From Acinetobacter sp. (lineage in GTDB: Bacteria > Pseudomonadota > Gammaproteobacteria > Pseudomonadales > Moraxellaceae): DNA of 47,266 nt. A program made the position numbers and the translations under genes. The notes under the pieces were generated by a model. The model was not told the DNA's origin, did no database searches, and was given only the letters and a program-made list of their open reading frames with translations. Positions 11,198-29,361 of this stretch are shown in pieces. The stretch spans positions 1-47,266 of the forward strand of contig JAITLL010000069.1 in NCBI GenBank assembly GCA_031277915.1. The letters are read 5' to 3'. Each line of letters starts with the position of its first letter. Position 1 is the first letter of the stretch.

Positions 11198-12256
11198 ATG
11201 GCTGAACTCAATACTCCCCTAACAGTTGGTGATTTTGAAATTAAAAATCGACTGGTAATGGCTCCATTAACACGTGCACGTAGTGGCGAAAGCCGTGTTC
11301 CAAACGACTTAATGGTGGAATATTATCAACAACGTGCAAATGCTGGTCTCATTCTCACTGAAGCAACAGTAATTGGTTCAAAAACTGTGGGTTATGCAGA
11401 AACTCCTGGACTTTGGTCACAAGAGCAGGCACAAGCTTGGAATAAGATTATTGAAGCAGTTCATGCACAAGGTTCAAAAATTGTAGTTCAACTTTGGCAT
11501 GTAGGCCGCATCTCAGACCCTGAACTTTTGGATGGTGATATTCCAGTTGCACCAAGTGCGATTCAGCCTGAGGGTGAAGTAAGCCTATTACGTCCTAAAC
11601 GTCCATACGTAAAACCACGTGCGCTTTCAATTGAAGAAATTCAAGAAGTGGTTGCTCAATATAAACATTCAGCAGAATTGGCTAAAGCTGCAGGTTTTGA
11701 TGGTGTTGAGTTACACGCTGCAAATGGTTATTTAATTGACCAGTTCCTGCAAAGTAATACCAACCAGCGTGATGATGAGTATGGTGGTCCGGTTGAAAAT
11801 CGTGCTCGCTTGTTATTAGAAGTGGTTGATGCCTTTATTGAAGTGTGGGGTGCTGGCCGAGTAGGTGTACATATTGCACCACGTGGCGATTCTCATGATA
11901 TGGGTGATGAAAATCCATTAGCAACATTCGGTTATGTAGTTGAGCAGCTGAGCCAACGTAATGTAGCTTTCATTTTCTCTCGTGAATATGAAGCTGCCGA
12001 TAGTATTAGTCCTAAACTTCGTGAAAAATTTAATGGTGTTTGGATTGCCAATGAAAACCTGACACCAGAGTCTGCAAAACGTATTTTGCGTGAAGGTCAG
12101 GCGGATGCTGTGTCTTTTGGTAAGGCTTATATTGCGAACCCAGATCTTTTACAGCGTTTAGAGCAAGGTCTACCTTTAAATGAACTTCAACCAACGACTT
12201 TATATGCGAAAGGTGCTGAAGGTTATACAGACTATCCTGCTTTAGAAGCTTCATAA
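11198..12256 (+). CDS. nemA: Old-yellow-enzyme family alkene reductase (N-ethylmaleimide reductase-like)
   Basis: This 352-aa FMN-dependent TIM-barrel enzyme uses NAD(P)H to reduce the C=C bond of electrophilic alkenes (enones, maleimides, nitro-esters). It shows the family landmarks: MAPLTRARS near the FMN site, QLWHVGRISDP, and the substrate-binding His/Asn pair in the long signature GVELHAANGYLIDQFLQSN. The FMN-phosphate region DAVSFGKAYIANPDL is also present. The length matches NemA/XenB-type enzymes. It forms a two-gene unit with the ArsR-type regulator, so it is probably induced by reactive electrophiles. The symbol nemA is by resemblance; a XenA/XenB-like name would fit equally well. 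Confidence 0.9.
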   Translation: MAELNTPLTVGDFEIKNRLVMAPLTRARSGESRVPNDLMVEYYQQRANAGLILTEATVIGSKTVGYAETPGLWSQEQAQAWNKIIEAVHAQGSKIVVQLWHVGRISDPELLDGDIPVAPSAIQPEGEVSLLRPKRPYVKPRALSIEEIQEVVAQYKHSAELAKAAGFDGVELHAANGYLIDQFLQSNTNQRDDEYGGPVENRARLLLEVVDAFIEVWGAGRVGVHIAPRGDSHDMGDENPLATFGYVVEQLSQRNVAFIFSREYEAADSISPKLREKFNGVWIANENLTPESAKRILREGQADAVSFGKAYIANPDLLQRLEQGLPLNELQPTTLYAKGAEGYTDYPALEAS

Positions 12257-16137: not shown

Positions 16138-16244
16138 AACTTGAAAAAATTATAAAAGTAAAAGCTATAGACAAATGTTTTAAATCAACTTAATTTTATA
16201 AAAATGTTCATAATTTCGTGTGCTTGAGTAGGTGGTTAATATGT

Positions 16245-16254
16245 GACCAAAGTC
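16245..16254 (+). promoter_or_regulatory. Candidate CrbR-type operator upstream of acs (GACCAAAGTC)
   Basis: The 10-mer GACCAAAGTC, a GAC-N4-GTC dyad, is found here 113 bases before the acs ATG. The identical 10-mer occurs 97 bases before the DUF485-actP start (27206-27215). A one-base variant lies upstream of the unknown gene at 22476-23243. The shared position and sequence suggest a binding site for one regulator. The adjacent CrbR/ErdR-type response regulator is the obvious candidate. Confidence 0.5.
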
Positions 16255-16366
16255 GGATTGTCTAGGCTTTAAAAACGTCATCATACTGAAAAGGCATTCA
16301 AATAAGATCCAGTAAAATAATAGCCACAGTCTCGAGATGGGATGCACAAGATCAAGGAAGTTACGT

Positions 16367-18316
16367 ATGAATGAGATCTATCCAGTACCAGAGGAATTTA
16401 AAAAAACAGCTCGTACTCTTGAAGCAGACTACTTTAAACGTTATCAACACTCTATCGAGAACCCAGATGAATTCTGGGCTGAGCAAGCTAAAATTGTCGA
16501 TTGGATAAAGCCATTTACCCAAGTTAAAAATACCAGTTTTGATAAAGACAATTTCAAGATTGAGTGGTTTGCCGATGGCGAGCTGAACGTGTCAGCAAAC
16601 TGCCTAGACAGGCATCTAAAAGAGCATCCTCATAAACCAGCGATTATTTGGGAAGGGGACCATCCTTCTCGTCATAAAATCGTTTCTTATAAAGAATTAC
16701 ACGATGAAGTTTGTCGCTTTGCCAACGTTTTAAAGAAATATGGCATTGGTAAAGGTGACCGTGTTGTGTTGTATATGCCAATGGTCACTGAGGCTGCAAT
16801 TGCCATGTTAGCCTGTGCTCGTATTGGTGCAGTCCACTGTGTAGTATTTGGTGGTTTCTCGCCAGATTCTTTAGCAAGCCGTATTGAAGATAGCCAAGCT
16901 AAACTGGTGATTACCGCAGACTCAAGTCTACGTGCTGGAAAATTATTACCACTCAAAGAAAATGTCGATTTAGCTCTAGAATTGCCGGGTACGGAGTGCG
17001 TTGAAAATGTAGTGGTGGTTTACCGTAATGCCAACCCGATTGAAATGAAGCCGGGCCGTGATTTGTGGTATCACCTCATTATTATGGAAGTTGATGCAAA
17101 CTGTCCTCCAGAACCTATGAAGGCAGAAGACCCATTATTTATTCTCTATACCTCGGGCTCAACAGGTAAACCAAAAGGTGTTTTGCACACCACAGGTGGT
17201 TATCTGGTTTATGTGACAAGTACCTTTAAAGAGGTGTTCGACTTAAAACAAGATGATGTGTACTGGTGTACGGCAGATGTAGGCTGGATTACAGGACATA
17301 GCTATCTACTCTATGGTCCACTTGCAAATGGCACTACGACTTTAATGTTTGAGGGTGTACCTCAATATCCAACATGGGCACGTCTTGGTCATGTGGTCGA
17401 TAAACACAAAGTTTCTATTTTGTATACAGCACCAACCGCGATTCGAGCCATGATGCGAGAAGGTGATTCGTTTGTACGTGAAAGTAACCGTAGCAGCTTG
17501 CGTTTACTTGGTTCGGTCGGTGAACCGATTAACCCTGAGGCTTGGAACTGGTATTACAACGTTGTAGGTGAAGGCCGCTGTCCAATTGTTGATACATGGT
17601 GGCAAACTGAAACAGGCGGTATATTAATTGCGCCATTGCCGGGTGCAACAGCTTTAAAACCAGGTTCGGCAACGCGTCCGTTATTTGGTATTCAACCCGC
17701 CATTGTAGATGGTGAAGGTAATGAGCTAGAAGGCGTAGTCGAAGGCAATCTGGTGATTAAAGATTCTTGGCCAGGCCAAATGCGTACTATTTGGGGTGAC
17801 CCAGACCGGTTTATTGAGGCTTACTTCTCGACCTTTAAAAATACCTACTTTACAGGTGATGGTGCTCGCCGTGATGAAGATGGTTATTACTGGATCACAG
17901 GTCGTGTTGATGATGTCTTAAACGTTTCAGGCCACCGTTTAGGTACTGCTGAAATTGAAAGTGCACTGGTATCGCATGAAGCCGTGGCAGAAGCTGCAGT
18001 AGTGGGAATGCCTCATGATATTAAAGGACAAGGTATTTGTACGTTCGTAACCTTGCAAGCGGGCGTTCCAGAGTCGGAAGAGTTGCGTAAAGAGTTAATT
18101 AACTGGGTACGTAAAGTACTTGGCCCAGTGGCTTCACCCGATGCATTGCATTGGGCACCAGCATTACCGAAAACCCGATCTGGTAAAATCATGCGCCGTA
18201 TTTTAAGAAAAATTGCGGCAAATGAACTAGATAGTTTAGGTGATACTTCAACCTTGGCTGAACCTGCTGTGGTAGATCAGTTAATTGCAACGGTTTACCC
18301 CGATAAACAAAACTAA
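16367..18316 (+). CDS. acs: Acetyl-CoA synthetase (AMP-forming)
   Basis: Acs activates acetate to acetyl-CoA through acetyl-AMP and is the high-affinity route for acetate use. The 649-aa protein has the adenylate-forming core motif [12 protein letters not shown] (about residues 262-273), WWQTETGG near residue 415, and [20 protein letters not shown] in the hinge region. The C-terminal [11 protein letters not shown] holds the catalytic lysine that is acetylated in relatives. The start is placed at ATG 16367 because AAGGAAG lies 6 bases upstream and the protein then begins [11 protein letters not shown] as in the family; an upstream in-frame ATG (16337) would add ten residues. The actP transporter and a CrbS/CrbR-type system are within 11 kb. 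Confidence 0.97.
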
Positions 18317-18321
18317 TTTTT

Positions 18322-18345
18322 AAAAGCCCCATTTGGGGCTTTTTT
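18322..18345 (+). terminator. Rho-independent terminator of acs
   Basis: AAAAGCCCCA (18322-18331) and TGGGGCTTTT (18334-18343) form a perfect 10-bp stem with a minimal loop and a T-run. It also fits the end of the convergent minus-strand gene (stop at 18357). Confidence 0.85.
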
Positions 18346-18356
18346 ATTGAGAATTA

Positions 18357-18899
18357 TTAAGCATTTGCTAAAAAGTCAGCAGTATTTTGTACATTTGCAA
18401 ACGTACTCAGTGCGGTTAAAAAAGCAGTTTGTACGTCTTCAGCTTTTACCATTTTTCCGTTATGGCTTAAATCACGAGTGGCGGTTGCATCTGCAATTAA
18501 GATGGGTTGATAGCCAAGTTCTTTGGCAGCACGTGTACCTGAATCAATACACATATGTGTCATCATACCTGTAATCACGAGTTGCTCAATTTGATGTGTT
18601 TTTAAAAGTTCATCTAAATTGGTTTCTAAGAAACTGTTTGGATAGTGTTTTGTCACGATTAATGAATCACTACCAGCACTAAGTTCAGGATGAAGTAAAA
18701 CCCCATCTGTATTTTCTTGAAAGAAACTTGCTTGTGGTGGATTAATATGTTGTACATAAATAAGCGGCAAGTTTCTCTCACTAAAATATTGTTCGAGCTG
18801 TTTTATTTTTTCTAATGCTAACTCTGACCCAACCAATTCCATTTTGCCATTTTTAAAATAATCGTTTTGTACATCGATAACTAACAGTGCTTGTTTCAT
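18357..18899 (-). CDS. Isochorismatase-fold cysteine hydrolase
   Basis: This 180-aa protein (start at ATG 18899) begins MKQALLVIDVQNDYF, the usual N-terminus of the family. The catalytic triad is readable: the Asp in VIDVQNDY, the Lys in IVTKHYPNSF and the nucleophilic Cys in TGMMTHMCIDSG. Relatives hydrolyse amides or ester-like substrates (nicotinamide, isochorismate, ureidoacrylate), so the substrate cannot be told from sequence. An upstream alternative start would add 17 residues that look unrelated to the fold, so it was rejected. The gene is divergent from an Lrp/AsnC regulator about 105 bases away, which is the likely controller. Confidence 0.88.
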   Translation of the reverse strand: MKQALLVIDVQNDYFKNGKMELVGSELALEKIKQLEQYFSERNLPLIYVQHINPPQASFFQENTDGVLLHPELSAGSDSLIVTKHYPNSFLETNLDELLKTHQIEQLVITGMMTHMCIDSGTRAAKELGYQPILIADATATRDLSHNGKMVKAEDVQTAFLTALSTFANVQNTADFLANA

Positions 18900-19004
18900 G
18901 AGAACACTCTTGTTGATATGAGATAAAACAAGGTTATTCTCTTCTGGCAAAATCGGCTATAGTCCCATGAAAGCATTACCGCCCATTTTCTTTCGCCATG
19001 AAAA

Positions 19005-19418
19005 ATGAATATTGAATTAGACCCGATTGATCTAAAAATTATTGCATTACTCAAGCAAGATTCCCGCTTAACAAATAAAGAAATTGGGCAATGTGTTCAT
19101 CGAACAGGGCAGGCAGTGGGCGCTCGAATTGCTCAGTTAATGGATGCTGGTGTCATTAAAAACTACACGATTGCCGTGCAGTATTCACATAAACAATTTA
19201 TTCATTTGCATTTAAATGAACAACGCGCATTTGAAGAAATTGAAAATTTGGTCAAGCAATATGAACAAATCGATGAATGCTTTAAAGTCATGGGCAATGC
19301 TTGCTATATGATCGTCAGTCATTTTGAACCCGCAGCATTAAATGAATTTATCGAAAAACTTTCAAAATGGTGCCGTTATTCGGTTGAAACAGTGATCCGA
19401 GAAGTTGAGAAATCTTAA
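19005..19418 (+). CDS. Lrp/AsnC-family transcriptional regulator
   Basis: This 137-aa protein opens with the Lrp signature LDPIDLKIIALLKQDSRLTN, followed by a helix-turn-helix (KEIGQCVHRTGQAVGARIAQLMDAGVI, about residues 25-50). A ligand-binding RAM-like ferredoxin fold follows (IDECFKVMGNACYMIVSHFEPAALNEFI). It is a little shorter than Lrp itself. Divergent placement from the isochorismatase-fold hydrolase suggests it controls that gene, perhaps in response to an amino acid or related amide. The 105-base divergent gap must hold both promoters. No distinct operator repeat was found there by eye. Confidence 0.88.
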   Translation: MNIELDPIDLKIIALLKQDSRLTNKEIGQCVHRTGQAVGARIAQLMDAGVIKNYTIAVQYSHKQFIHLHLNEQRAFEEIENLVKQYEQIDECFKVMGNACYMIVSHFEPAALNEFIEKLSKWCRYSVETVIREVEKS

Positions 19419-19420
19419 AA

Positions 19421-19449
19421 AATAAAAGCTCCAAGCCGAGTCTTGGAGC
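19421..19449 (-). terminator. Terminator of the msuE-sfnG operon
   Basis: GCTCCAAG (19428-19435) and CTTGGAGC (19442-19449) form a perfect 8-bp stem. On the minus strand it is followed by TTTTATTTTTT, a good terminator for sfnG. On the plus strand the tail is poor, so it serves the Lrp gene less well. Confidence 0.75.
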
Positions 19450-19510
19450 CAATAAATCTTTATTTTAATTTATTATTTTTATTGTCTTGCGCTGCTTTAA
19501 CTGAAGTTTT

Positions 19511-20623
19511 TTAGGCTGATTTGGCTTGAATTTCTATCTCCTTTTCTGCTTGAAGTTCTAATTGGCGAACGAGTGGTAGAATTTTTTCCCCGAAATATTC
19601 CACCTCTTCAATAAAGTGTAAGAAACCGGAAAGAATCAAATCAACACCTACATGTTTAAGTGCCACAATACGCTCTGCAATTTGCTGGGGTGTACCAATT
19701 AAATTGGTTTTAAAGCCATCGTTATATTGCACTAAATCTTCAAAACTTGATTTCGCCCAGTTACCTTGTTGCTCTGGAGAAGCTGCACCTGCTTCACGTG
19801 TTGCATCGCCAAAAGCATTTACCGCTTCAGTGTTGGCTTTATCAATAATTTCTTGAAGTACCGCTTTTGCTTCTTCTTCGGTATCTCTGGCAATAATGAA
19901 CGCATTTACACCAATTTTGACGTGATGATTATTGGCTTTAGCTTTAGTGCGAATGTCTTCGACTTGTTTTTGAATTTCCTCTACGGTATTACCGTTAGTG
20001 AAATACCAGTCAGAAACACGTGAAGCCATGTCACGCGCAGCACGTGAGCTACCACCTTGAAATACTTCAATATAAGGCTTTTGCAGTGGTTTTGGCTTAA
20101 GTGTGTAGTTTTGGAACTGGTAGTATTTACCATCGAAACTATAGTTGTCAGTGGTCCAGATTCCTTTTAAGGTACGAATAAATTCTTCAGAGCGGACATA
20201 GCGCTCGTCATGTTCTGGCCACTCTTCACCAATCGCATCAAACTCTCCTCTAAACCAGCCACTCACTACATTAATGGCAATACGGCCTTCAGTTAAATAA
20301 TCAATTGTTGCAAGTTGCTTGGCTGCGAGTGCCGGTTTCCAAGGGCCGGGCAGAATAGCCGCAATCACCTTAAGTTTTTCAGTTTTTGCCAGTAATGCAT
20401 GACTGAAACTTACAGACTCATGCTGATTTTCTGCCCCATAGCCCGCTGTAAAACGAATTTGGGTGAGCGCATATTCAAAACCATTTTTTTCGGCAGCCTG
20501 AGCAAGTCGAACATTGTAGTCGTAACTCCAGTCTGTACGCTGTTCGATGTTACTTACTACAAGGCCACCGCTTACGTTTGGTACCCAATAAGCAAATTTA
20601 ATTGGTTGTTGTAATTGCGTCAT
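19511..20623 (-). CDS. sfnG: Dimethylsulfone monooxygenase SfnG (FMNH2-dependent)
   Basis: This 370-aa flavin-dependent monooxygenase is of the luciferase-like (SsuD/SfnG) family. It starts MTQLQQPIKFAYWVPNVSGG. The segments RTDWSYDYNVRLAQAAEKNG, NVVSGWFRGEF and EVFQGGSSRAARDMASR are characteristic of SfnG and its close relatives. SfnG oxidises dimethylsulfone to methanesulfinate with reduced FMN, letting cells use organosulfur compounds as a sulfur source. The ATG at 20623 is preferred (GGGAG 8 bases upstream) over a TTG that adds five residues. The FMN reductase gene immediately upstream, ending 45 bases before this start, supplies the reduced flavin. The two genes form an operon closed by a terminator. 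Confidence 0.92.
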   Translation of the reverse strand: MTQLQQPIKFAYWVPNVSGGLVVSNIEQRTDWSYDYNVRLAQAAEKNGFEYALTQIRFTAGYGAENQHESVSFSHALLAKTEKLKVIAAILPGPWKPALAAKQLATIDYLTEGRIAINVVSGWFRGEFDAIGEEWPEHDERYVRSEEFIRTLKGIWTTDNYSFDGKYYQFQNYTLKPKPLQKPYIEVFQGGSSRAARDMASRVSDWYFTNGNTVEEIQKQVEDIRTKAKANNHHVKIGVNAFIIARDTEEEAKAVLQEIIDKANTEAVNAFGDATREAGAASPEQQGNWAKSSFEDLVQYNDGFKTNLIGTPQQIAERIVALKHVGVDLILSGFLHFIEEVEYFGEKILPLVRQLELQAEKEIEIQAKSA

Positions 20624-20667
20624 GGTGTGCTCTCCCAATTCGTTATTTTTATTTAGCTATATTGCAC

Positions 20668-21405
20668 TTAAGCAACATGCGTTAATGATTTGCCAGACTT
20701 GTGATGCAAGCGAGACTCTGCCGCATCAAGATCGGGTACAGCCGCTGAAGGTAATACTTCTTCTTGCTCAATTTGCTTGTTAATACCAAGCTCTTGATTT
20801 GCTTGCTGAGTCTTAGATTTGACTACTTCAGCACGTTTACCTTTCGCTGGTGCCCATTCTAAAATTGGTAATGCACGTGCCACTGCTAACGTAATACGGT
20901 CAGATAATTGCTCGCTTTTCACCGTATATTCAGGGGTAAAATCACGATCAGTCGCATATACGCCAATTGGTAAAGTTTGTGCTTGGAAGAAACTGAACAA
21001 TGGACGAAGTTGATGTTCAAGTACAAGTGCATGTCGATCGCTACCGCCCGATGCTGCTAAAAGTACAGGCACATCGACCAATGCAGTTTGTTCAACAAAA
21101 TCGAAGAAATGTTTGAACAGGCCCGTAAAAGAGGCACGGTAAACAGGCGTACCTACAATTAAAGCATCTGCTGCTTCAACCGCTGCAAGATCATCTTGTA
21201 CCCGCTGTGGAAGTTGGTTGCGGTAAAATGCTCCGCCTAATAAAGGCCCAATTTCACTTAATTTAATGAAATGAACTTTAATATCGGTTGCTTCTGATAA
21301 TTCATCAAGAATGGCTTGAACTAGACTTTCCGTTTTAGATGGCGTATTTAAGCCACCAGAAACGGCAACAATATTTAAAGGTTTTAATGATGCAATACCA
21401 GTCAT
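20668..21405 (-). CDS. msuE: NADH/NADPH-dependent FMN reductase, MsuE type
   Basis: This 245-aa flavodoxin-fold reductase contains NIVAVSGGLNTPSKTESLV, the FMN-phosphate loop of the SsuE/MsuE family. ADALIVGTPVYRASFTGLFKHFFD is the family's second flavin-binding motif. A C-terminal extension of about 50 residues (KSKTQQANQELGINKQ to the end) is hydrophilic and longer than in SsuE, as in MsuE-type proteins. The ATG at 21405 has the ribosome-binding site TAGGAACC; a longer start adds ten residues with no support. It provides FMNH2 to the SfnG monooxygenase encoded directly downstream. Sulfur-starvation control (CysB/Cbl or SfnR type) is expected from relatives, but no regulator gene is adjacent. 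Confidence 0.88.
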   Translation of the reverse strand: MTGIASLKPLNIVAVSGGLNTPSKTESLVQAILDELSEATDIKVHFIKLSEIGPLLGGAFYRNQLPQRVQDDLAAVEAADALIVGTPVYRASFTGLFKHFFDFVEQTALVDVPVLLAASGGSDRHALVLEHQLRPLFSFFQAQTLPIGVYATDRDFTPEYTVKSEQLSDRITLAVARALPILEWAPAKGKRAEVVKSKTQQANQELGINKQIEQEEVLPSAAVPDLDAAESRLHHKSGKSLTHVA

Positions 21406-21560
21406 AATTTGGTTCCTAAGCCTAAAAAAGAACATTAGACTTATTAATCAACAATGACGGTGAACTGTAAAATAACGAAATTGGTCAACCTTATCAGTTT
21501 TAAATATAAAAGATAAATAGTGGATTTTTGTACTTTATCTATATATTAAGTTGCTGTTTT

Positions 21561-21597
21561 TATTTTATATAATTATTGGTGATATATTTTATATAAT
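21561..21597. repeat. 13-base direct repeat in the msuE-crbR intergenic region
   Basis: TATTTTATATAAT occurs at 21561-21573 and again at 21585-21597, a 24-base period. The surrounding 21406-21781 gap (about 375 bases) is very AT-rich and holds the divergent promoters of the msuE operon and the response-regulator gene. No gene was found in it. The repeat may be an operator pair or simply low-complexity sequence. Confidence 0.4.
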
Positions 21598-21781
21598 AAA
21601 AAGTAAGCTTATATAAAAAACAGATTAATTTTGATTAAATGTTAAAAAACATCTGAAAATTTTAGCTAAGTTCTGTATTTATCAACATTTTGCATAAAAA
21701 TGGATAAGATGAACGTATCTTTCATCTAAATAGTAGGGTTACAATAGCCCATACTTATGCTCAAGATTACTTTAATCGCTT

Positions 21782-22432
21782 ATGAATATTTTAATCGTTG
21801 ATGATCATCCTTTGTTTCGTCATGCTTTAATTCAAGCAGTACGTTATAGCCTGCCACAGGCACAAATTCATGAAACAGCTTCGGTTGATGAGTTTTATGA
21901 GCGTTTGGAAAATGGGGCAGAACCTGATCTGGTATTACTCGATTTAAATTTACCAGGTGCTTCAGGCTTTTCTGCTCTGGTTTATGTACGAGCACAGTAT
22001 CCAGCTATTCCAATTATTGTGGTTTCAGCACATGAAGAAACTTCAATTATTCAGCGTGCGATTGCACACGGCGCGATGGGTTATATTCCTAAGTCGGCTC
22101 ATCCAAGTCATATTGGTGAAGCGATTCGTCAGGTTCTAGATGGGGAAATCTGGTTACCACCAAACTTACCATCTAATCTTAATCTGGACCCGAGAGCAGC
22201 AGATGAAACTGCTTTGGCCGAGCGTATCCAATCTTTAACACCTCAGCAATTCCGTGTTTTGATGATGGTTGCAGAAGGTTTGTTAAATAAACAGATTGCC
22301 TACGAGCTAGATGTGTCGGAAGCGACTATTAAGGCGCATGTGACAGCCATCTTTAGAAAATTAGGTGTGCAAAACCGTACACAGGCGGTACTGGCCATTA
22401 GTGCATTAAATATTGAAGATAAGAAAATCTAA
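21782..22432 (+). CDS. crbR: NarL/LuxR-type response regulator, CrbR/ErdR-like
   Basis: This 216-aa response regulator has a receiver domain (residues 1-120) with the acidic pocket DD at 7-8, the phospho-acceptor Asp54 in LVLLDLNLPG, and the conserved Lys in GYIPKSAHP. A LuxR-type helix-turn-helix follows (about 150-205: LTPQQFRVLMMVAEGLLNKQ, then EATIKAHVTAIFRKLGV). The nearby SSS-transporter histidine kinase, acs and actP identify it as the likely partner of the acetate-responsive CrbS/CrbR (MxtR/ErdR) pair known in Vibrio and Pseudomonas. The gene is separated from the kinase gene by one unknown gene on the other strand. The symbol is by context and family. The DNA-binding specificity is not known from this window. 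Confidence 0.82.
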   Translation: MNILIVDDHPLFRHALIQAVRYSLPQAQIHETASVDEFYERLENGAEPDLVLLDLNLPGASGFSALVYVRAQYPAIPIIVVSAHEETSIIQRAIAHGAMGYIPKSAHPSHIGEAIRQVLDGEIWLPPNLPSNLNLDPRAADETALAERIQSLTPQQFRVLMMVAEGLLNKQIAYELDVSEATIKAHVTAIFRKLGVQNRTQAVLAISALNIEDKKI

Positions 22433-22436
22433 AATG

Positions 22437-22464
22437 AAAAAAGACCTCTGTTGAGGTCTTTTTT
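22437..22464. terminator. Bidirectional terminator after crbR
   Basis: A 12-bp perfect stem (AAAAAAGACCTC 22437-22448 with GAGGTCTTTTTT 22453-22464) has a 4-base loop. It can serve crbR and the convergent unknown gene, whose stop is at 22476. Confidence 0.9.
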
Positions 22465-22475
22465 ATATCCATGTG

Positions 22476-23243
22476 TTAAGCAAGACAGTCTTGCTTTGGT
22501 GTTAGGCTGTCGCAGTACAGTGGGTTAAGTGCACATTGCAAATCATCAATTTGATCTTGAGTCACATAACCTTTCATTTTTAAATATTCAGCTACGCGGT
22601 CATCACGTAAACTTAAGAAAGCTGCATCATAAACGCCTAAATCTACAAAAAGAGCAGCTGTCTCCAGACTATTGAATCGATCAAGGAAAATGTCATTGCC
22701 ATACATTAAAAAGATATGGTCAAGTTTTGCTTTTTCATCGACATGTAGTCGTTCAGCCAGTTGATCTGGGTGAGTTTTAATAAATAGTAAGTCTGAAAGT
22801 TCATCAAACTGACTCATATCTAACTGGTTTTCTCCGAGTTTGACATGACCAAGCCAAGCTTTAAAAACCAGAACTGCACCGCCACGTAAAAGCATGCTCC
22901 AGATTTGATGGCGTGTGTCATGGTCAAGATTTTCACTTTCAGTGCTAAGAATTTTTAAGAAATTCTCTTCTTGCTGCGCTAATTTATCAAATAAACCTAA
23001 ACCTTGTGGATGATAAGCCGCAGGTGCAAATACATCAAAATTTAGATTATGAAATACGTTGAGTGCGAGCGGGACTGTACACTGATAAATTGTGTTGAGT
23101 GCTTTGATATGTGATTCGTTGAGCTTGCTATTAGGAAAAATACTTTGCCAATCTAACTCTGGCAGTAAAGCATTGGCACTGTATTGACGATAAAATTGTT
23201 GAGATGAAAGTTGCCCTTGCGGGGTGTTATCAGAAATCTTCAT
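22476..23243 (-). CDS. Protein of unknown function within the acetate-response cluster
   Basis: I do not recognise this 255-aa protein. It has no signal peptide and no transmembrane helix. It looks largely alpha-helical, with a hydrophobic middle (LLRGGAVLVFKAWLGHVKLG, about residues 122-141) and acidic flanks. It has three cysteines in its last 21 residues (ending LQCALNPLYCDSLTPKQDCL plus Ala), with another Cys near residue 55. It lies between the genes for a CrbR-type regulator and a CrbS-type kinase. Its 388-base upstream region contains an 18-bp palindrome whose centre, GACTAAAGTC, matches the element upstream of acs and actP. Co-regulation with acetate genes is therefore inferred. A role in acetate or acyl metabolism, or in kinase modulation, is possible but unproven. 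Confidence 0.75.
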   Translation of the reverse strand: MKISDNTPQGQLSSQQFYRQYSANALLPELDWQSIFPNSKLNESHIKALNTIYQCTVPLALNVFHNLNFDVFAPAAYHPQGLGLFDKLAQQEENFLKILSTESENLDHDTRHQIWSMLLRGGAVLVFKAWLGHVKLGENQLDMSQFDELSDLLFIKTHPDQLAERLHVDEKAKLDHIFLMYGNDIFLDRFNSLETAALFVDLGVYDAAFLSLRDDRVAEYLKMKGYVTQDQIDDLQCALNPLYCDSLTPKQDCLA

Positions 23244-23365
23244 GGCAGTTGTCCTTTGCTTTAATTCGTGAGCAGGGGTGCTTAATATAGAAATCGGTTA
23301 AAAAATGGTTATACATTTATCAAATGCGTTTGCAATAGTTATGTGTCATCAAGAATGCAAGTAGA

Positions 23366-23383
23366 ATAAGACTAAAGTCTTAT
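23366..23383. promoter_or_regulatory. 18-bp palindrome containing GACTAAAGTC upstream of the unknown gene
   Basis: ATAAGACT-AA-AGTCTTAT is a perfect palindrome 123 bases upstream of the 22476-23243 start codon. Its core GACTAAAGTC differs by one base from the GACCAAAGTC copies before acs and actP. The remainder of the 23244-23631 gap is AT-rich, with one more near-palindrome (23443-23458) and a terminator; I see no gene. Confidence 0.5.
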
Positions 23384-23442
23384 ATGGTGAATTTTGTTGA
23401 ATAATTATTTATAAAAACAATAGTTTATTAAATTGTAACTAG

Positions 23443-23458
23443 GTGTACACGTGTTCAC
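23443..23458. repeat. 16-bp near-palindrome (one mismatch)
   Basis: GTGTACACGTGTTCAC pairs with itself except at one position. It lies 200 bases upstream of the unknown gene and could be another regulator site. Nothing matching it was noticed elsewhere in the window. Confidence 0.35.
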
Positions 23459-23586
23459 TTACAAAAAAGGTGGGCTTTGCCATAGAAAAAGAAGCTTTGG
23501 AAATTTTGGTCAATGATTAATAGGGAAAAAGAAGACTTTTTGAGCAGTTCTGCCTATTGGCTTAAATTTAATTTATAAGTTTTGCC

Positions 23587-23624
23587 AAAAATATCTCTCA
23601 AACCTATAGAAGGCTTGAGAGATA
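23587..23624 (-). terminator. Terminator of the CrbS-type kinase gene
   Basis: TATCTCTCAA (23592-23601) and TTGAGAGATA (23615-23624) form a perfect 10-bp stem. On the minus strand it is followed by TTTTT, just after the kinase stop codon. Confidence 0.8.
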
Positions 23625-23631
23625 AAAATAA

Positions 23632-26600
23632 TTAGTCTGTTGTGCTGGCAATTTTAAGTCCAGATAACCAAGCTCTTAATGAAGCCGGTTTGAGCGGTTT
23701 TTTGAGTAAAACGATGTTCAGATCTTTTAATTGCTGCGGTAACTCTGGGTGCGAGTCTGCTGTAATTAAAGCCACTGGAACATCTTCTTGACGATTTTGA
23801 ATAATAAAATCAACACCAAGTTGATTGTTATTTAAATGTTGGTCAATCAACCAAACCTGAATATTTTCTTTTTGAATAATTTCTAGAGCCTGCTCAGGTT
23901 CGGTGGCTTTGAACACTTGATACCCCCATCGACCTAATAAACTACTCATACCTTCAAGAATGGTTTCATCGTTGTCTAAACATAAAATCCGGTAGGCTTT
24001 GGTTTTTAAAGGCACTGCTTGTACAGTCGGAGTCGTAACTTTTGGTGGTTCAACAATAGGCACTTCAATCATAAAACATGAACCTTTGCCCAACTCTGAG
24101 TAAACATGAACTGGATAATTTAGCAAACCTGTCATACGTTGTACGATGGCGAGCCCTAGTCCTAAACCTTGTTCACCCCAAGGGGATAAATGCCCACAAC
24201 GTTCAAATTCTTGGAATAATTTAATTCGTTGTTCTTCGGCAATACCGGGTCCGGTATCCCAAACCCCAATGCGAATATGCCCAGATTGCTGGGCAGAGCG
24301 GAGTACACCCACTACCACTCGACCCTTGGCGGTATAACGTAAAGCATTACTCACAAAGTTTTGAATAATACGGCGAATCCACTGTGGATCGGTATCAATC
24401 CAGAATGATACATCGTGAACTTTCAATGTGATATTTCGCTGTGCTGCAATCGATTTAAACTGTAACTCAAGGTCACTGAGTAAATCATGCAGAGGATAAG
24501 GCTGTCTCTTCGGTTGAATACTACCTCCTTCTAAACGAGCGATATCGAGCAGGGCAGACAGCATACTTTCTGCACCATAGAGTGCTCGATCAAGTTGCTG
24601 CAAAGTTTGACGGTCTTGTTCTGTTGAAATACTTTGCTCAAGCACGGTACTAAACAGACGAGCGGCATGCATCGGTTGTAATAGGTCATGGCTTGCCGCT
24701 GCAATAAAGCGGCTTTTTGACATATTGGCCATATCGGCTTGCTCGCGAGCAAGCTGTTGTTCTGATAAAGCATCCGCGAGCTGCTGTGTTCGATCTTTGA
24801 CACGTGCTTCAAGTACTGCTTCGTTTGCACGGAATGCAGTAATGTCAGCAAATGTTGTCACAAAGCCGCCACCTGAAATTGGGTTACCTCGCATTTGAAT
24901 CACACGGCCATCTTTACGAATACGTTCAAATTCGTGGGCACTACCTACCTTCATCCAGTGCAGACGTTTACGCACATGTTCTTCGACCGAACCAGGGCCA
25001 CATTCGCCACGTTCAGCGTTATAACGAATCAAGTCAGCAATTGGACAGCCTACATAAACTAAGTCTTTTGGGTAACCAAATAGTTTTAAATATTGGTTGT
25101 TCCATGCAACCAAACACATGTTTTTATCAACCACACTGACCCCTTGAGTCATGTGGTCAATCATGGTCATGAGTAGGTTTTGATTAAAACGTTGCCACTG
25201 GGAGGCTTGGTCTAAAATATTAGCCACTTGTCCTAAAGCGAGACCATTATTAATCATTGCTGTGGTAAGTAGAGTACGCGCAGAAGCAGCACCGATAATA
25301 CCTGCCAGATATTGCTCGGTAAAACGCCACCACATGCCATTGGCGATACTATTTGGGTTGAGCGTGAGGTGATTTTGCTCACAAAAGTTCTCGAACGCTT
25401 GAGTGGTTGGCTGCTCACCCGTAATTCTTTTGGCTAAGGCGAACAGATCACCTACTTTTAATCGTGCGGCATCATGCGGTAAATACGTTAAATCGGTAGA
25501 GGTGTGCGGTGATGGTAAAGGCTTTGTTTCGTAATAGAAGAAGCTTTCGGCCTGAATTTGCTCAGCTACACTTGGTCGATAAAGTTTAGAAATCCAGATA
25601 TATAAAAGAATATTTAAGCCGAGCGACCAAATCACACCATGGGTCAATGGTGCAAAAGACTCAAAGCCAAATAGCGACTCTGGACGTAAGACATTGATGC
25701 CAAATGGGCCAAAGAGCAAAATATTTTGGGCTGTGTGCTGATAGATTTCCGGCAGACTGCGTAAAATGGTTGGAAATAATAAAGTGTAACTCCACATTAA
25801 AAATCCAACGATGAGTCCCGCATAGACCCCTTGGCGGCTTCCTCCTCGCCAATACAATCCTCCAATGAGTGCTGGTGCAAACTGAGCTACCGCACTAAAA
25901 GCCAATAGGCCGAAAACTGAAAGTTGGTTAATATCATTAAAGAAGTGGAAGAATAAAAAGCCCAGTAGCATGACTGCGATAATACTGATGCGGCGGCTAA
26001 ATTTGAGTACTTTGGGTAAATGTTTATCGTGACGAGACAGCACCTTGAAGCGCCATAGGGCAGGCATAATCAAGTCATTACTCAGCATAATAGACAAAGC
26101 AACTGACGAAACCAGTAACATACCTGTTGAGGCTGAAAAGCCGCCTAAAAAGGCCAGTAAGGCTAACCACTCTTGGTTATAACTTAGTGGTAAAGACAGT
26201 ACAGCTACATCAGGTACAGTCAGGAACTCTGGTGCGGCATGCAAAGCCCAGCTTGCAATCGGGATAATCGCAAAAATAGTTAAAATGAGATAGATTGCAA
26301 ACCATTTACGGGCACCACGAATATGCTTTTCATCGCGTAGCTCGACCACTGCCACATGGAACTGACGTGGTAAACAAATAATGGCTAAACCTGCTAGTAG
26401 AGTTTGAATCCAGAAAGTTTCAGGTACCCCAAATAGCTGAACCTCTTGGAACGTCTGATTTACATCAGACGTCATTTGACTTAAGTTTGCTGGTGTTTCA
26501 AAAATAAAAAATAATGCGACGCAAAGTAGAGCAAATAACTTCACGAAAGACTCAAATGCAACTGCGAGCATGAGGCCGCCGTGTTGTTCTGTGTTTGCAA

Positions 26601-27129
26601 TCTGTCTTGTACCAAAAATCATGGCCAAGATCGCAAGTACACTGGTGAGTAATAACACGCTGTTTGTGGTGGTATGAATATGCGAGCTTTGCTCCATAAT
26701 GACAGAGGTACTTAGAGCAATTGCACGGAGCTGTAATGCGAGGTAGGGGATAATTGCAATGACTGCAAGAATGGTCACTAGCGACGCCAGTACACCACTT
26801 TTACCATAGCGGGCTGCAACGAAGTCGGCAATTGATGAAATGGCATGGTGTTGCCGAACACGACCTAAACGCCGCCAGATGTCATAACCAAACCAGACAA
26901 ATAAGAGGGGGCCTAAATAAATAGGTAAGAAAATAACGCCTTCACGCACAGCTGCGCCAGTTGCGCCGTAAAATGTCCATGAAGAACAATAGACACCTAA
27001 AGTTAAACTAAATAAAAACATGCGGCCACGTGTGCCGAGACGGCTGGCATGCTTCTCACCAAAAAAAGCACAGACAAATAAAAGCGCAATATAGAGCGTG
27101 AGAACTCCAATAATCAGCCAGCTGTTCAT
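23632..27129 (-). CDS. crbS: Transporter-fused hybrid histidine kinase, CrbS/MxtR-like
   Basis: This is a 1165-aa inner-membrane sensor. The N-terminal ~520 residues are a sodium:solute symporter (SSS) domain with about 13 helices (for example FLFSLTLGVYCSSWTFYGAT near residue 40 and LLAFLGGFSASTGMLLVSS near 325). Then come a linker region, a PAS domain (around MTQGVSVVDKNMCLVAWNNQ) and a coiled coil. The HisKA H-box is FIAAASHDLLQPMHAARLF. The ATPase has a G1 box in GVWDTGPGIAEEQ and a G2 box in GLGLGLAIVQRM. A C-terminal receiver carries Asp in WLIDQHLNNNQLG. CrbS-type kinases couple acetate metabolism to acs expression. The gene is divergent from DUF485-actP, sharing a 182-base region that contains GACCAAAGTC. 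Confidence 0.88.
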   Translation of the reverse strand: MNSWLIIGVLTLYIALLFVCAFFGEKHASRLGTRGRMFLFSLTLGVYCSSWTFYGATGAAVREGVIFLPIYLGPLLFVWFGYDIWRRLGRVRQHHAISSIADFVAARYGKSGVLASLVTILAVIAIIPYLALQLRAIALSTSVIMEQSSHIHTTTNSVLLLTSVLAILAMIFGTRQIANTEQHGGLMLAVAFESFVKLFALLCVALFFIFETPANLSQMTSDVNQTFQEVQLFGVPETFWIQTLLAGLAIICLPRQFHVAVVELRDEKHIRGARKWFAIYLILTIFAIIPIASWALHAAPEFLTVPDVAVLSLPLSYNQEWLALLAFLGGFSASTGMLLVSSVALSIMLSNDLIMPALWRFKVLSRHDKHLPKVLKFSRRISIIAVMLLGFLFFHFFNDINQLSVFGLLAFSAVAQFAPALIGGLYWRGGSRQGVYAGLIVGFLMWSYTLLFPTILRSLPEIYQHTAQNILLFGPFGINVLRPESLFGFESFAPLTHGVIWSLGLNILLYIWISKLYRPSVAEQIQAESFFYYETKPLPSPHTSTDLTYLPHDAARLKVGDLFALAKRITGEQPTTQAFENFCEQNHLTLNPNSIANGMWWRFTEQYLAGIIGAASARTLLTTAMINNGLALGQVANILDQASQWQRFNQNLLMTMIDHMTQGVSVVDKNMCLVAWNNQYLKLFGYPKDLVYVGCPIADLIRYNAERGECGPGSVEEHVRKRLHWMKVGSAHEFERIRKDGRVIQMRGNPISGGGFVTTFADITAFRANEAVLEARVKDRTQQLADALSEQQLAREQADMANMSKSRFIAAASHDLLQPMHAARLFSTVLEQSISTEQDRQTLQQLDRALYGAESMLSALLDIARLEGGSIQPKRQPYPLHDLLSDLELQFKSIAAQRNITLKVHDVSFWIDTDPQWIRRIIQNFVSNALRYTAKGRVVVGVLRSAQQSGHIRIGVWDTGPGIAEEQRIKLFQEFERCGHLSPWGEQGLGLGLAIVQRMTGLLNYPVHVYSELGKGSCFMIEVPIVEPPKVTTPTVQAVPLKTKAYRILCLDNDETILEGMSSLLGRWGYQVFKATEPEQALEIIQKENIQVWLIDQHLNNNQLGVDFIIQNRQEDVPVALITADSHPELPQQLKDLNIVLLKKPLKPASLRAWLSGLKIASTTD

Positions 27130-27205
27130 ATGACCTACATAAGTGAAACCTTATGCCTATCATAACCCAAGCCGAAACAAAGCTATAAATTGATTAAATT
27201 TTAAC

Positions 27206-27215
27206 GACCAAAGTC
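27206..27215 (+). promoter_or_regulatory. Candidate CrbR-type operator between crbS and DUF485-actP (GACCAAAGTC)
   Basis: This is the same 10-mer as upstream of acs. It lies 97 bases before the ATG at 27312 and 77 bases before the divergent crbS start, so it could act on either gene. A related 14-mer, GTGACCAAGGTTGG (27276-27289), lies close to the ribosome-binding site and matches the acs-side sequence GTGACCAAAGTCGG at 12 of 14 positions. Confidence 0.5.
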
Positions 27216-27311
27216 TAAGTTACGACTGAGTCAGAATCTTGCTAACTTTAATCGTGAAAAAATACATTAAAAAAAGTGACCAAGGTTGGGCACTGAGTAA
27301 GGAGTTTGGTC

Positions 27312-27644
27312 ATGGATCAAAGCCAAGTAGAACAGATTCTACGCAATCCAAAGTTTCAAAAAATGGTCAAGAAAAAAAGTGCATTAAGCTGGACGCTCAC
27401 AATCATTATGTTAGTGCTTTATGTGGGCTTTATGCTACTTGTTGGCTATAACAAAGAGTTTTTGATGAGTTCATTTAGTGGTGGTGTAACGACATGGGGT
27501 ATTCCACTAGGCTTAGGAATTATTGTTTTATCCTTCCTACTGTGTGGTGTGTACTCTTTTATCGCAAATCATACCCTTGACCAATTGAGTGAAGAAGCGT
27601 TGAAGGAAGTTGAAGCCATCACGCATGAGAAAGGACTACACTAA
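27312..27644 (+). CDS. DUF485 membrane protein, ActP partner
   Basis: This 110-aa protein has the DUF485 layout. A short amphipathic N-terminus ([20 protein letters not shown]) is followed by two transmembrane helices ([18 protein letters not shown] and [20 protein letters not shown]) and a C-terminal helix ([15 protein letters not shown]). The family (E. coli YjcH) is almost always encoded just upstream of the acetate symporter ActP, as here with one base between stop and start. The ATG at 27312 is chosen because AAGGAG (27299-27304) lies 7 bases upstream; a TTG start would add two residues. It is probably an accessory subunit of the transporter, though its precise role is not established. 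Confidence 0.9.
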
Positions 27645-27645
27645 T

Positions 27646-29361
27646 ATGAAATGGAATTCATTAAAGGCGAAAGCTTTATTGGCAGCAGCATCGCTATATT
27701 CAACAGTGGCTATGGCGAGTCCAGACTTAGGTGAAGCTGAACAACAAGCAACCAATTGGCATGCGATTATTATGTTTGTCATTTTTGTTGGTTTCACTTT
27801 GTTCATTACTAAGTGGGCTGCGAAACAAACCCAATCAACACAAGATTTCTATACAGCAGGTGGTGGAATCAGCGGTTTCCAGAATGGTCTGGCAATTGCG
27901 GGTGACTATATGTCTGCGGCATCTTTCCTTGGTATTTCTGCACTTGTGTTTAGTTCGGGCTTTGATGGCTTGCTTTATTCGCTTGGGTTCATGGTAGGTT
28001 GGCCAATCGTTTTATTCTTGGTTGCAGAACGTTTGCGTAACCTTGGTAAATATAACCTTTCAGATGTGGTTTCATTCCGCCTTGAAGAAAAACCGGTTCG
28101 TACTTTAGCTGCAATCAGCTCACTTGTTGTTGTGGCATTCTATTTGATTGCCCAAATGGTCGGTGCGGGCCAGCTTATCAAATTACTATTTGGTTTGAAC
28201 TACAACATTGCTGTAGTCATCGTTGGTCTATTGATGATGGCATATGTAATCTTTGGTGGTATGTTGGCAACAACATGGGTACAAATTATCAAAGCGGTCA
28301 TGCTACTCAGTGGTGCAACTTTCATGGCATTCATGGTGATGAAAGCGGTTGGTTTCAGCTTCAGTAACATGTTTAGCCAATCAATTGAAGTCTTCAGCAA
28401 AGTACATGACATCAGCTTGAGTGATGCTGCAAAAATTATGGGTCCGGGTAAACTTGCAGCAAACCCAATTGATGCCTTGTCTCTTGGTTTAGCATTAATG
28501 TTTGGTACAGCAGGTCTTCCACACATCCTTATGCGTTTCTTCACTGTAAAAGATGCGAAAGAAGCACGTAAATCGGTTGTGGTTGCAACAGGCTTCATTG
28601 GTTATTTCTACCTTTTAACTTTCATTATTGGTTTTGGTGCGATCCTGTTCGTATCAAACAATCCACAGTTCCTTGATGTTGCAAAAATGGCAGTAACAGG
28701 CAAACTTGAGCTTGTTGGCGGTAACAATATGGCAGCCGTGCATTTAAGTAACGCTTTAGGCGGTGACTTATTCATGGGCTTCATTTCAGCAGTAGCGTTC
28801 GCAACCATTCTTGCTGTGGTTGCTGGTTTAACACTTTCAGGTGCATCTGCGATCTCTCATGACTTATATGCTAACGTATTCAAGAAAGGTCAAACAACAC
28901 CTGCTTCTGAACTTCGTATGTCAAAAATTGCGACATTGGGCCTAGCAATCTTCGCAATGATTTTAGGTATCCTGTTTGAGAAGCAAAACGTAGCATTCAT
29001 GGTTGGTTTAGCGTTCTCGGTAGCTTGTTGTGCAAACTTCCCAATCCTTGTTCTTTCAATGTTCTGGAAAGGTTTAACGACTCGTGGAGCAGTTATTGGT
29101 GGTGTTGTTGGTTTGGTAACAGCAGTAGTACTCATTGTGCTTTCTAAAGCAGTTTGGGTAGATACTTTAAAAATCTCTGATACACCAATCAACCCATTCA
29201 ATGGTCCCGCGTTATTTGCTATGCCATTGTCGTTCCTTTGCTGCTGGTTCTTCTCTGTGACTGACAACTCTGCACGTGCTAAAAAAGAGCGTGCTGCTTT
29301 CGATGCTCAATATGTACGTTCAATGACAGGTATTGGTGCATCTGGTGCATCGGATCACTAA
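27646..29361 (+). CDS. actP: Cation/acetate symporter
   Basis: ActP takes up acetate (and glycolate) with a cation across the inner membrane. The 571-aa protein has a cleavable-looking signal segment ([20 protein letters not shown] then VAMA) and then the sodium:solute symporter fold with about 13 helices. Characteristic segments include [40 protein letters not shown] and [13 protein letters not shown]. The ATG at 27646 has GAAAGGA upstream and follows the DUF485 stop by one base; a longer reading overlapping that gene was rejected. The cluster contains its uptake protein (actP), activation enzyme (acs) and sensor-regulator pair, which makes acetate use under CrbS/CrbR-type control the best explanation. 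Confidence 0.96.

Follow-up and report, generated by a model that had tools for sequence, protein, structure and literature searches.

Putative CrbR (EmaR) operators of the ACTU type before acs, DUF485-actP and a 255-residue orphan gene in Acinetobacter

The acetate-use regulator CrbR/ErdR has a published DNA motif, ACTU, described in 2017 (PMC5715377) as an imperfect inverted repeat of 17 bp whose core reads GAC/TAC-N4-GTC, and found there in 91 of 112 promoter regions. In Pseudomonas fluorescens, according to that account, the motif spans positions -52 to -36 relative to the transcription start, immediately ahead of an RpoD promoter, and is needed for CrbR-dependent activation; one point mutation reduced induction and four abolished it. 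Its tables include the sequences TACGACTAAAGTCTAAA and TACTACCAAAGTCTAAT and list the acs, actP and pflu0110-homologous genes of Acinetobacter oleivorans DR1 with the motif. For EmaSR, the homologue of CrbS/R in A. baumannii ATCC 19606, another site has been proposed: the EmaR box CTTATnnnnATnAT, obtained with MEME from EmaSR-dependent genes and present upstream of six of them, including emaS and emaR (PMC9603970). We compared both descriptions with a stretch of Acinetobacter sp. DNA (contig JAITLL010000069.1, 47,266 nucleotides, hereafter the window), in which three near-identical repeats precede acs, DUF485-actP and a gene beside crbS.

In A. baumannii, DUF485 and actP are reported to be activated by EmaSR (PMC9603970), and the ASCT (scpC) homologue is described as having an EmaSR-dependent promoter (PMC10891947). 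The MxtR/ErdR pair of P. putida KT2440 is similar in that it is described as acting in acetate and pyruvate use and in that ErdR binds, in vitro, to the promoters of actP-I, scpC and PP_0354; it differs in that no ErdR binding is reported at acsA-I, whose promoter lacks the motif (PMC8402216, PMC9927547). In the literature that we searched, only PMC5715377 and PMC8402216 use the term "ACTU motif". The present comparison joins two literatures that seem barely in contact, one on CrbS/R and ACTU in Pseudomonas and Vibrio and one on EmaSR and a different box in Acinetobacter.

Three repeats and the published motif

A first-pass annotation had located GACCAAAGTC at 16245-16254 and, identically, at 27206-27215, and GACTAAAGTC, which differs by one base, at 23370-23379; it had suggested a CrbR-type binding site that links acs, actP/crbS and an unassigned gene. 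These places are correct, as are the distances of 113 bases to the acs ATG (16367), 97 to DUF485 (27312) and 77 to crbS (27129), and all three repeats are intergenic. The 18-bp palindrome around GACTAAAGTC (23366-23383) consists of two exact 8-bp arms flanking AA, and the gene that follows codes for 255 residues.

Our ACTU matrix was built from Table 4 of PMC5715377, of whose 23 rows it uses 20; two duplicates of divergent gene pairs and one 16-mer were left out, and nothing from this genome went in. The three highest-scoring places in the 47 kb are 23367-23383, 27203-27219 and 16242-16258, corresponding to the following sites:

16242..16258, plus strand: ACTU-type (CrbR/EmaR) site before acs, TGTGACCAAAGTCGGAT; matrix score 16.0, among the top three of the window
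23366..23383, minus strand: ACTU-type site before the 255-residue gene, ATAAGACTTTAGTCTTAT on the gene strand; matrix score 16.2, first in the window
27203..27219, plus strand: ACTU-type site in the crbS-DUF485 divergent region, AACGACCAAAGTCTAAG; matrix score 16.0

The next separate place, at 11405, scores 13.0 and is a coding copy. It is a fourth GACCAAAGTC, on the minus strand (11409-11418) inside a gene for an FMN oxidoreductase (11198-12256), and is probably there by chance.

The three repeats are very probably ACTU-type sites, that is, docking sites of the acetate-use regulator. On the evidence of sequence comparison we hold with good confidence that they are operators of CrbR (EmaR), a LuxR-type response regulator that would activate acs, DUF485-actP and the 255-residue gene. 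We favour this reading because an independently published matrix selects the repeats, because they are conserved in place relative to controls, and because a -10-like hexamer follows at 27 bases at both acs and DUF485. It draws further on the ASCT gene, which keeps GACCTTAG in place, on the conserved DNA-binding domain of CrbR and on the activation of DUF485/actP by EmaSR in A. baumannii. The earlier suggestion thus holds for acs, DUF485-actP and the 255-residue gene, while crbS is only a possible target. For acs and actP the link to a CrbR-type site is not new, since the repeats fit the published motif; the fresh points are the disagreement with the A. baumannii EmaR box and the probable addition to the regulon of the 255-residue gene, which has been met in close relatives only.

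That CrbR binds and activates in this genome, and that the 255-residue gene is a true target, we infer from these data. In the mechanism that we propose, acetate, or ethanol turned into acetate, would cause the sensor kinase CrbS to phosphorylate CrbR. A CrbR dimer would then bind the inverted repeat, whose centre would lie some 45 bases ahead of the transcription start, and would recruit RNA polymerase to acs, DUF485-actP and the 255-residue gene.

Conservation and promoter spacing across the genus

Upstream regions were scored in 56 of 77 named loci, those with a crbR at least 80% identical to that of the window, against a threshold set at the 95% level of background; many of the sampled species are closely related, so the counts do not represent independent events. 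The threshold is exceeded before DUF485 in 34 of 37 regions, before crbS in 35 of 40 (one shared site) and before the 255-residue gene in 26 of 28. The corresponding fractions are 12/43 for acs (the acs of locus L053, a gene at a contig start, was dropped as an artefact), 2/56 for crbR and 2/20 for actP. A DUF805 gene divergent from acs passes in its only locus, sharing the acs site. The other neighbourhood genes, among 21 scanned, pass in no locus or in one each, the largest shares being 1/5 and 1/9.

For alignments, we used loci at least 86% identical with complete starts (35 species for crbS-DUF485, 40 for acs, 27 for the 255-residue gene and 51 for crbR). In the crbS-DUF485 region, GACCAAAGT is present in 34 of 35 species and GACCAAAGTC in 28, within the block where conservation in this region is highest. 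With a conservation of 0.977, the core ranks third among 173 ten-base windows, of which the top one is this site again, offset by a single base. The core before the 255-residue gene is 0.967 conserved and second of 211 windows; ACTTTAGTC occurs in 25 of 27 species and the exact GACTTTAGTC in 4. Upstream of ASCT, GACCTTAG is found in 28 of 30 genus loci, its centre lying 75-86 bases before the ATG.

The acs site is less uniform. Its core is 0.892 conserved and tenth of 211 windows, the first being the ribosome-binding region. AC-N-AAAG stands at this position in 36 of the 40 other species, and the full GACYAAAGTC in only two (L001 and L002). The usual forms in the genus are TACGACCAAAGCATGAT and TACGACCAAAGCCGCAT, in which the left half is retained and the right half has diverged, and this explains why few acs loci exceed the threshold. 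The expected conservation before orthologues thus holds for actP, and for acs in part. Since the perfect acs repeat is shared with so few species, only the nearest relatives of the window have identical sites before acs and actP; the site itself is older.

To place the sites relative to promoters, we scored -10-like hexamers from the base frequencies of -10 elements and averaged the score over species; the offsets given below come from this average and not from mapped transcription starts. The predicted elements are:

16282..16287, plus strand: predicted -10 of acs, CATACT, 27 bases past the site core; genus-wide peak of the -10 score, n = 37
27243..27248, plus strand: predicted -10 of DUF485-actP, TAACTT (TTGC before it), 27 bases past the core; n = 35
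23336..23343, minus strand: predicted -10 region of the 255-residue gene, CATAACTA, 26-28 bases past the core; weak peak

Offset 27 is the profile maximum for acs, and at DUF485 the score there is 1.16. If transcription starts about 7 bases past the hexamer, the site centre falls near -45, as it does in P. fluorescens, compatible with the published -52 to -36. Towards crbS there is no -10-like hexamer at 26-28 or around 32, and the nearest, a weak one, is at 43; by eye, a TATGAT lies about 41 bases from the site in that direction in the window. Because the hexamer at 27 is found only on the DUF485 side, the spacing points to actP rather than crbS as the gene served; the shared site might serve crbS as well, or might not. 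Promoter spacing might also be the reason why an emaS reporter is not acetate-inducible in A. baumannii.

Several observations weigh against the reading of the repeats as CrbR operators. Twenty of the 23 rows in the published table have q > 0.05, so most of the sites behind the matrix are predictions. Only 12 of the 43 acs loci pass the threshold, those that fail include L020 (recorded as A. baumannii), and acs is not named as an EmaSR target in the material consulted from the two A. baumannii accounts (PMC9603970, PMC10891947). The -10 peak of the 255-residue gene is weak (0.18 at offset 28, n = 26), and for ASCT the hexamer is at offset 32 instead of 27 (profile maximum, n = 28). The top -10-like scores for DUF485, the 255-residue gene and crbS are at offsets 0-2; we discounted these, since they fall in the A/T-rich flank of the site. 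The emaR/crbR promoter, EmaSR-dependent in reporters, is without an ACTU site (2 of 56 over threshold), and its EmaR box is 0.732 conserved against 0.619 for the region (51 species). The malic-enzyme and E1 genes, taken as the homologues of DJ41_3218 and DJ41_571, likewise have no ACTU site upstream (best scores 0.4 and -0.8). ACTU therefore does not explain all EmaSR-dependent genes; those without it may be indirect targets or may involve a second binding mode.

The 255-residue gene and the A/T-rich EmaR box

The gene lies between crbS and crbR, flanked by two terminator-like stems:

22437..22464, strand not assigned (listed on the minus strand): terminator-like stem between the convergent crbR and 255-residue gene
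22476..23243, minus strand: 255-residue gene without a Pfam or NCBIfam family; its position fits DJ41_3171
23592..23624, minus strand: terminator-like stem with a T-run, 3' of crbS, between crbS and the 255-residue gene

It is present in a single copy in 127 of 150 Acinetobacter genomes, that of the window included, and in three Alkanindiges loci. Among 274 genomes of the class, a sample with just one other genome of the same family, only the genome of the window has a match. Profile searches assign the protein to no Pfam or NCBIfam family. Its model is mostly helical (mean pLDDT 80.6), and structural comparison of the model gave no convincing relative. By synteny with the order described in PMC9603970, the gene fits DJ41_3171, between emaR (3170) and emaS (3172), and our literature search on DJ41_3171 found no paper.

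The alternative that survives best is that only acs and actP are CrbR targets and that the site before the 255-residue gene is a leftover or has some other function. The weak -10 peak, the rarity of the exact GACTTTAGTC and the empty literature search would fit this, but the position of the core as second most conserved window and the near-constant presence of ACTTTAGTC would not. Also, a terminator-like stem follows crbS and the 255-residue gene begins 388 bases on, on the same strand, with no other open reading frame (ORF) of at least 90 codons starting in between, so that the gene probably has its own promoter. We consider this alternative unlikely, and from its site and position the 255-residue gene is a likely member of the acetate-switch regulon; it is thereby named as a genus-conserved, uncharacterised candidate. 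Going by position and regulation only, we guess that its product is a soluble protein that assists acetate metabolism or the CrbS/R pair.

Further conserved blocks lie some 60 bases upstream of the ACTU-type site of the 255-residue gene: CTAGTTACAA (23430-23463) is 0.937 conserved in the 27 species. Many species have a GTACACnTGTAYAC-like palindrome near there, possibly for a second regulator.

According to a second alternative, the site truly bound in Acinetobacter is the EmaR box CTTATnnnnATnAT, and the repeats belong to another regulator. Its basis is the MEME analysis of EmaSR-dependent A. baumannii genes, which placed the box upstream of six (PMC9603970), and, in our data, emaR, which is EmaSR-dependent and combines a box more conserved than its region with the lack of an ACTU site. 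At two of the three promoters compared, however, the box is less conserved than its region. In the window it lies at 27149-27163, 43 bases from the ACTU core; at emaS-DUF485 it is 0.657 conserved against 0.718 for the region and ranks 113 of 168 fifteen-base windows, whereas the ACTU core reaches 0.977. At ASCT the corresponding stretch is 0.650 conserved against 0.660, and the ACTU-like core there, GACCTTAGCC, 0.966. The box is also A/T-rich and, towards emaS, overlaps a TATGAT, by eye a possible -10, and we met no mutation or binding test of it in the material available from PMC9603970 and PMC10891947. We therefore regard this alternative as improbable. The reading of the repeats as CrbR operators makes the true EmaR operator directly testable.

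In broader form, the proposal would be that ACTU, and not the A/T-rich box, is the EmaR operator throughout Acinetobacter, with a lineage-specific arm consisting of the 255-residue helical orphan and probably lldP. This extension is tentative, and we would not back it at even chances. If it is true, the acetate switch in Acinetobacter also governs a wider monocarboxylate response.

The third alternative is chance likeness of the three 10-mers. GAC-N4-GTC is slightly enriched in the window (8 observed against 4.13 expected; 6 of 100 shuffles reach 8), and as a motif on its own it was dropped as too common. GACYAAAGTC is strongly enriched there (4 against 0.15; none of 100 shuffles reaches 4). 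Genome-wide, GACCAAAGTC and GACTAAAGTC together have 16 copies against 18 for a reversed control, so there is no enrichment; the count was dropped as proof, and location and conservation were used in its place. Of the 12 copies beyond the window, 11 are inside ORFs of at least 80 codons. The remaining one resembles, by eye, a terminator stem and lies near a gene that we take to be atpI-like. In this assembly, which is 92% complete, only four copies are thus outside ORFs, three of them the repeats before acs, the 255-residue gene and DUF485, so the objection that the 10-mer is common in intergenic DNA fails. Genome-wide frequency speaks for chance, but the excess in the window, the conservation in place across the genus and the choice of the same three places by an independent matrix leave it a negligible probability.

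lldP and the gene setting

A degenerate pattern derived from the known sites matches the genome 11 times, at 10 places; a control gives 10, so a single match means nothing alone. The places are acs, the 255-residue gene, DUF485-actP, ASCT and six others, three inside ORFs and three outside (lldP, L130 and L136); conservation was examined at lldP. The lldP place (L134:1501-1516; G000:C48:33543-33558) lies between cpsG and lldP, the gene for L-lactate permease, and is one base off the repeat. An ACTU-like site before lldP scores over 10.25, a threshold derived from 350-bp windows and here applied to 420-bp regions, in 15 of 21 genus loci (L134 and L137-L153 are among the loci scored; L158 and L159, a split gene, were excluded). 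Among these 15 are 7 of the 13 loci that lack a divergent cpsG within the flank. Against a background in which the tested sites are themselves included, the 95% level is 12.2, and 14 of the 21 reach it. The distance to operators that we presume to be those of LldR is 58-62 in eight loci and mostly 124-132 in the rest; with distances so variable, the site may serve one promoter or another. We regard lldP as a candidate target and a lead.

The main genes of the locus are:

16367..18316, plus strand: acs, acetyl-CoA synthetase; Pfam AMP-binding and ACAS_N, NCBIfam TIGR02188 with 1001 bits against a cut-off of 725
21782..22432, plus strand: crbR/erdR/emaR response regulator; Response_reg and GerE (LuxR-type helix-turn-helix, HTH)
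23632..27129, minus strand: crbS/mxtR/emaS hybrid sensor kinase; PAS_7, HisKA, HATPase and receiver
27312..27644, plus strand: gene for a DUF485 membrane protein, by its Pfam domain
27610..29361, plus strand: actP, sodium:solute symporter (acetate permease); Pfam SSF, 1.8e-115

The crbR of the window is 99% identical to the nearest named loci, those of A. sp. WC-141 and A. lactucae. Profile searches give CrbR a receiver domain (PF00072, 3.3e-24) and a LuxR-type HTH (PF00196, 6.2e-20), which opens with LTPQQFRVLMM in 16 of 18 hand-picked loci of at least 51% overall identity. CrbR falls below the curated cut-off of NCBIfam NF041830 (ErdR), a model of the kind "exception", with 259.7 bits against 390, though this is its best NCBIfam match. 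We call the regulator CrbR-like by function and not a member of NF041830; its putative orthology is based on best match, synteny and the identity between EmaR and ErdR, given as 53.2% (PMC9603970). The identity between EmaS and MxtR is given as 36.8% in the same paper. CrbS has PAS, HisKA, HATPase and receiver domains in Pfam; the SSF (SLC5) family is not reported for it at E 0.001, and 13 membrane segments are predicted for EmaS (PMC9603970).

As in the published ACTU system of Pseudomonas, 17-bp imperfect inverted repeats are found upstream of acs and DUF485-actP, and of the ASCT gene (pflu0110), here just before predicted promoters. The window differs in the extra site before the 255-residue gene, between crbS and crbR, and in an acs site that is half-degenerate in most of Acinetobacter. 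According to the table of PMC5715377, the actP promoter of A. oleivorans also drives pflu5625; here, genes for an ion channel and a BCCT transporter follow actP, and pflu5625 was not searched for genome-wide. The EmaSR regulon as described in PMC9603970 and PMC10891947 is alike in its two-component system, in the order emaR, one gene, emaS, DJ41_3173, actP (to the extent that the order is stated there) and in its EmaSR-dependent ASCT, and unlike in the A/T-rich binding box proposed there.

Genes for SfnG (dimethylsulfone monooxygenase) and MsuE (FMN reductase) lie at 19511-21435, between acs and crbR. In 42 Acinetobacter-type loci the gap between acs and crbR is at least 273 bases, and crbR is without a site. 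Among 13 loci outside Acinetobacter, acs and crbR stand in tandem, 13-99 bases apart, in nine (L047, L050, L054, L056, L058, L059, L063, L064 and L067), and seven of the 13 have an ACTU-like site above 10.25 before acs.

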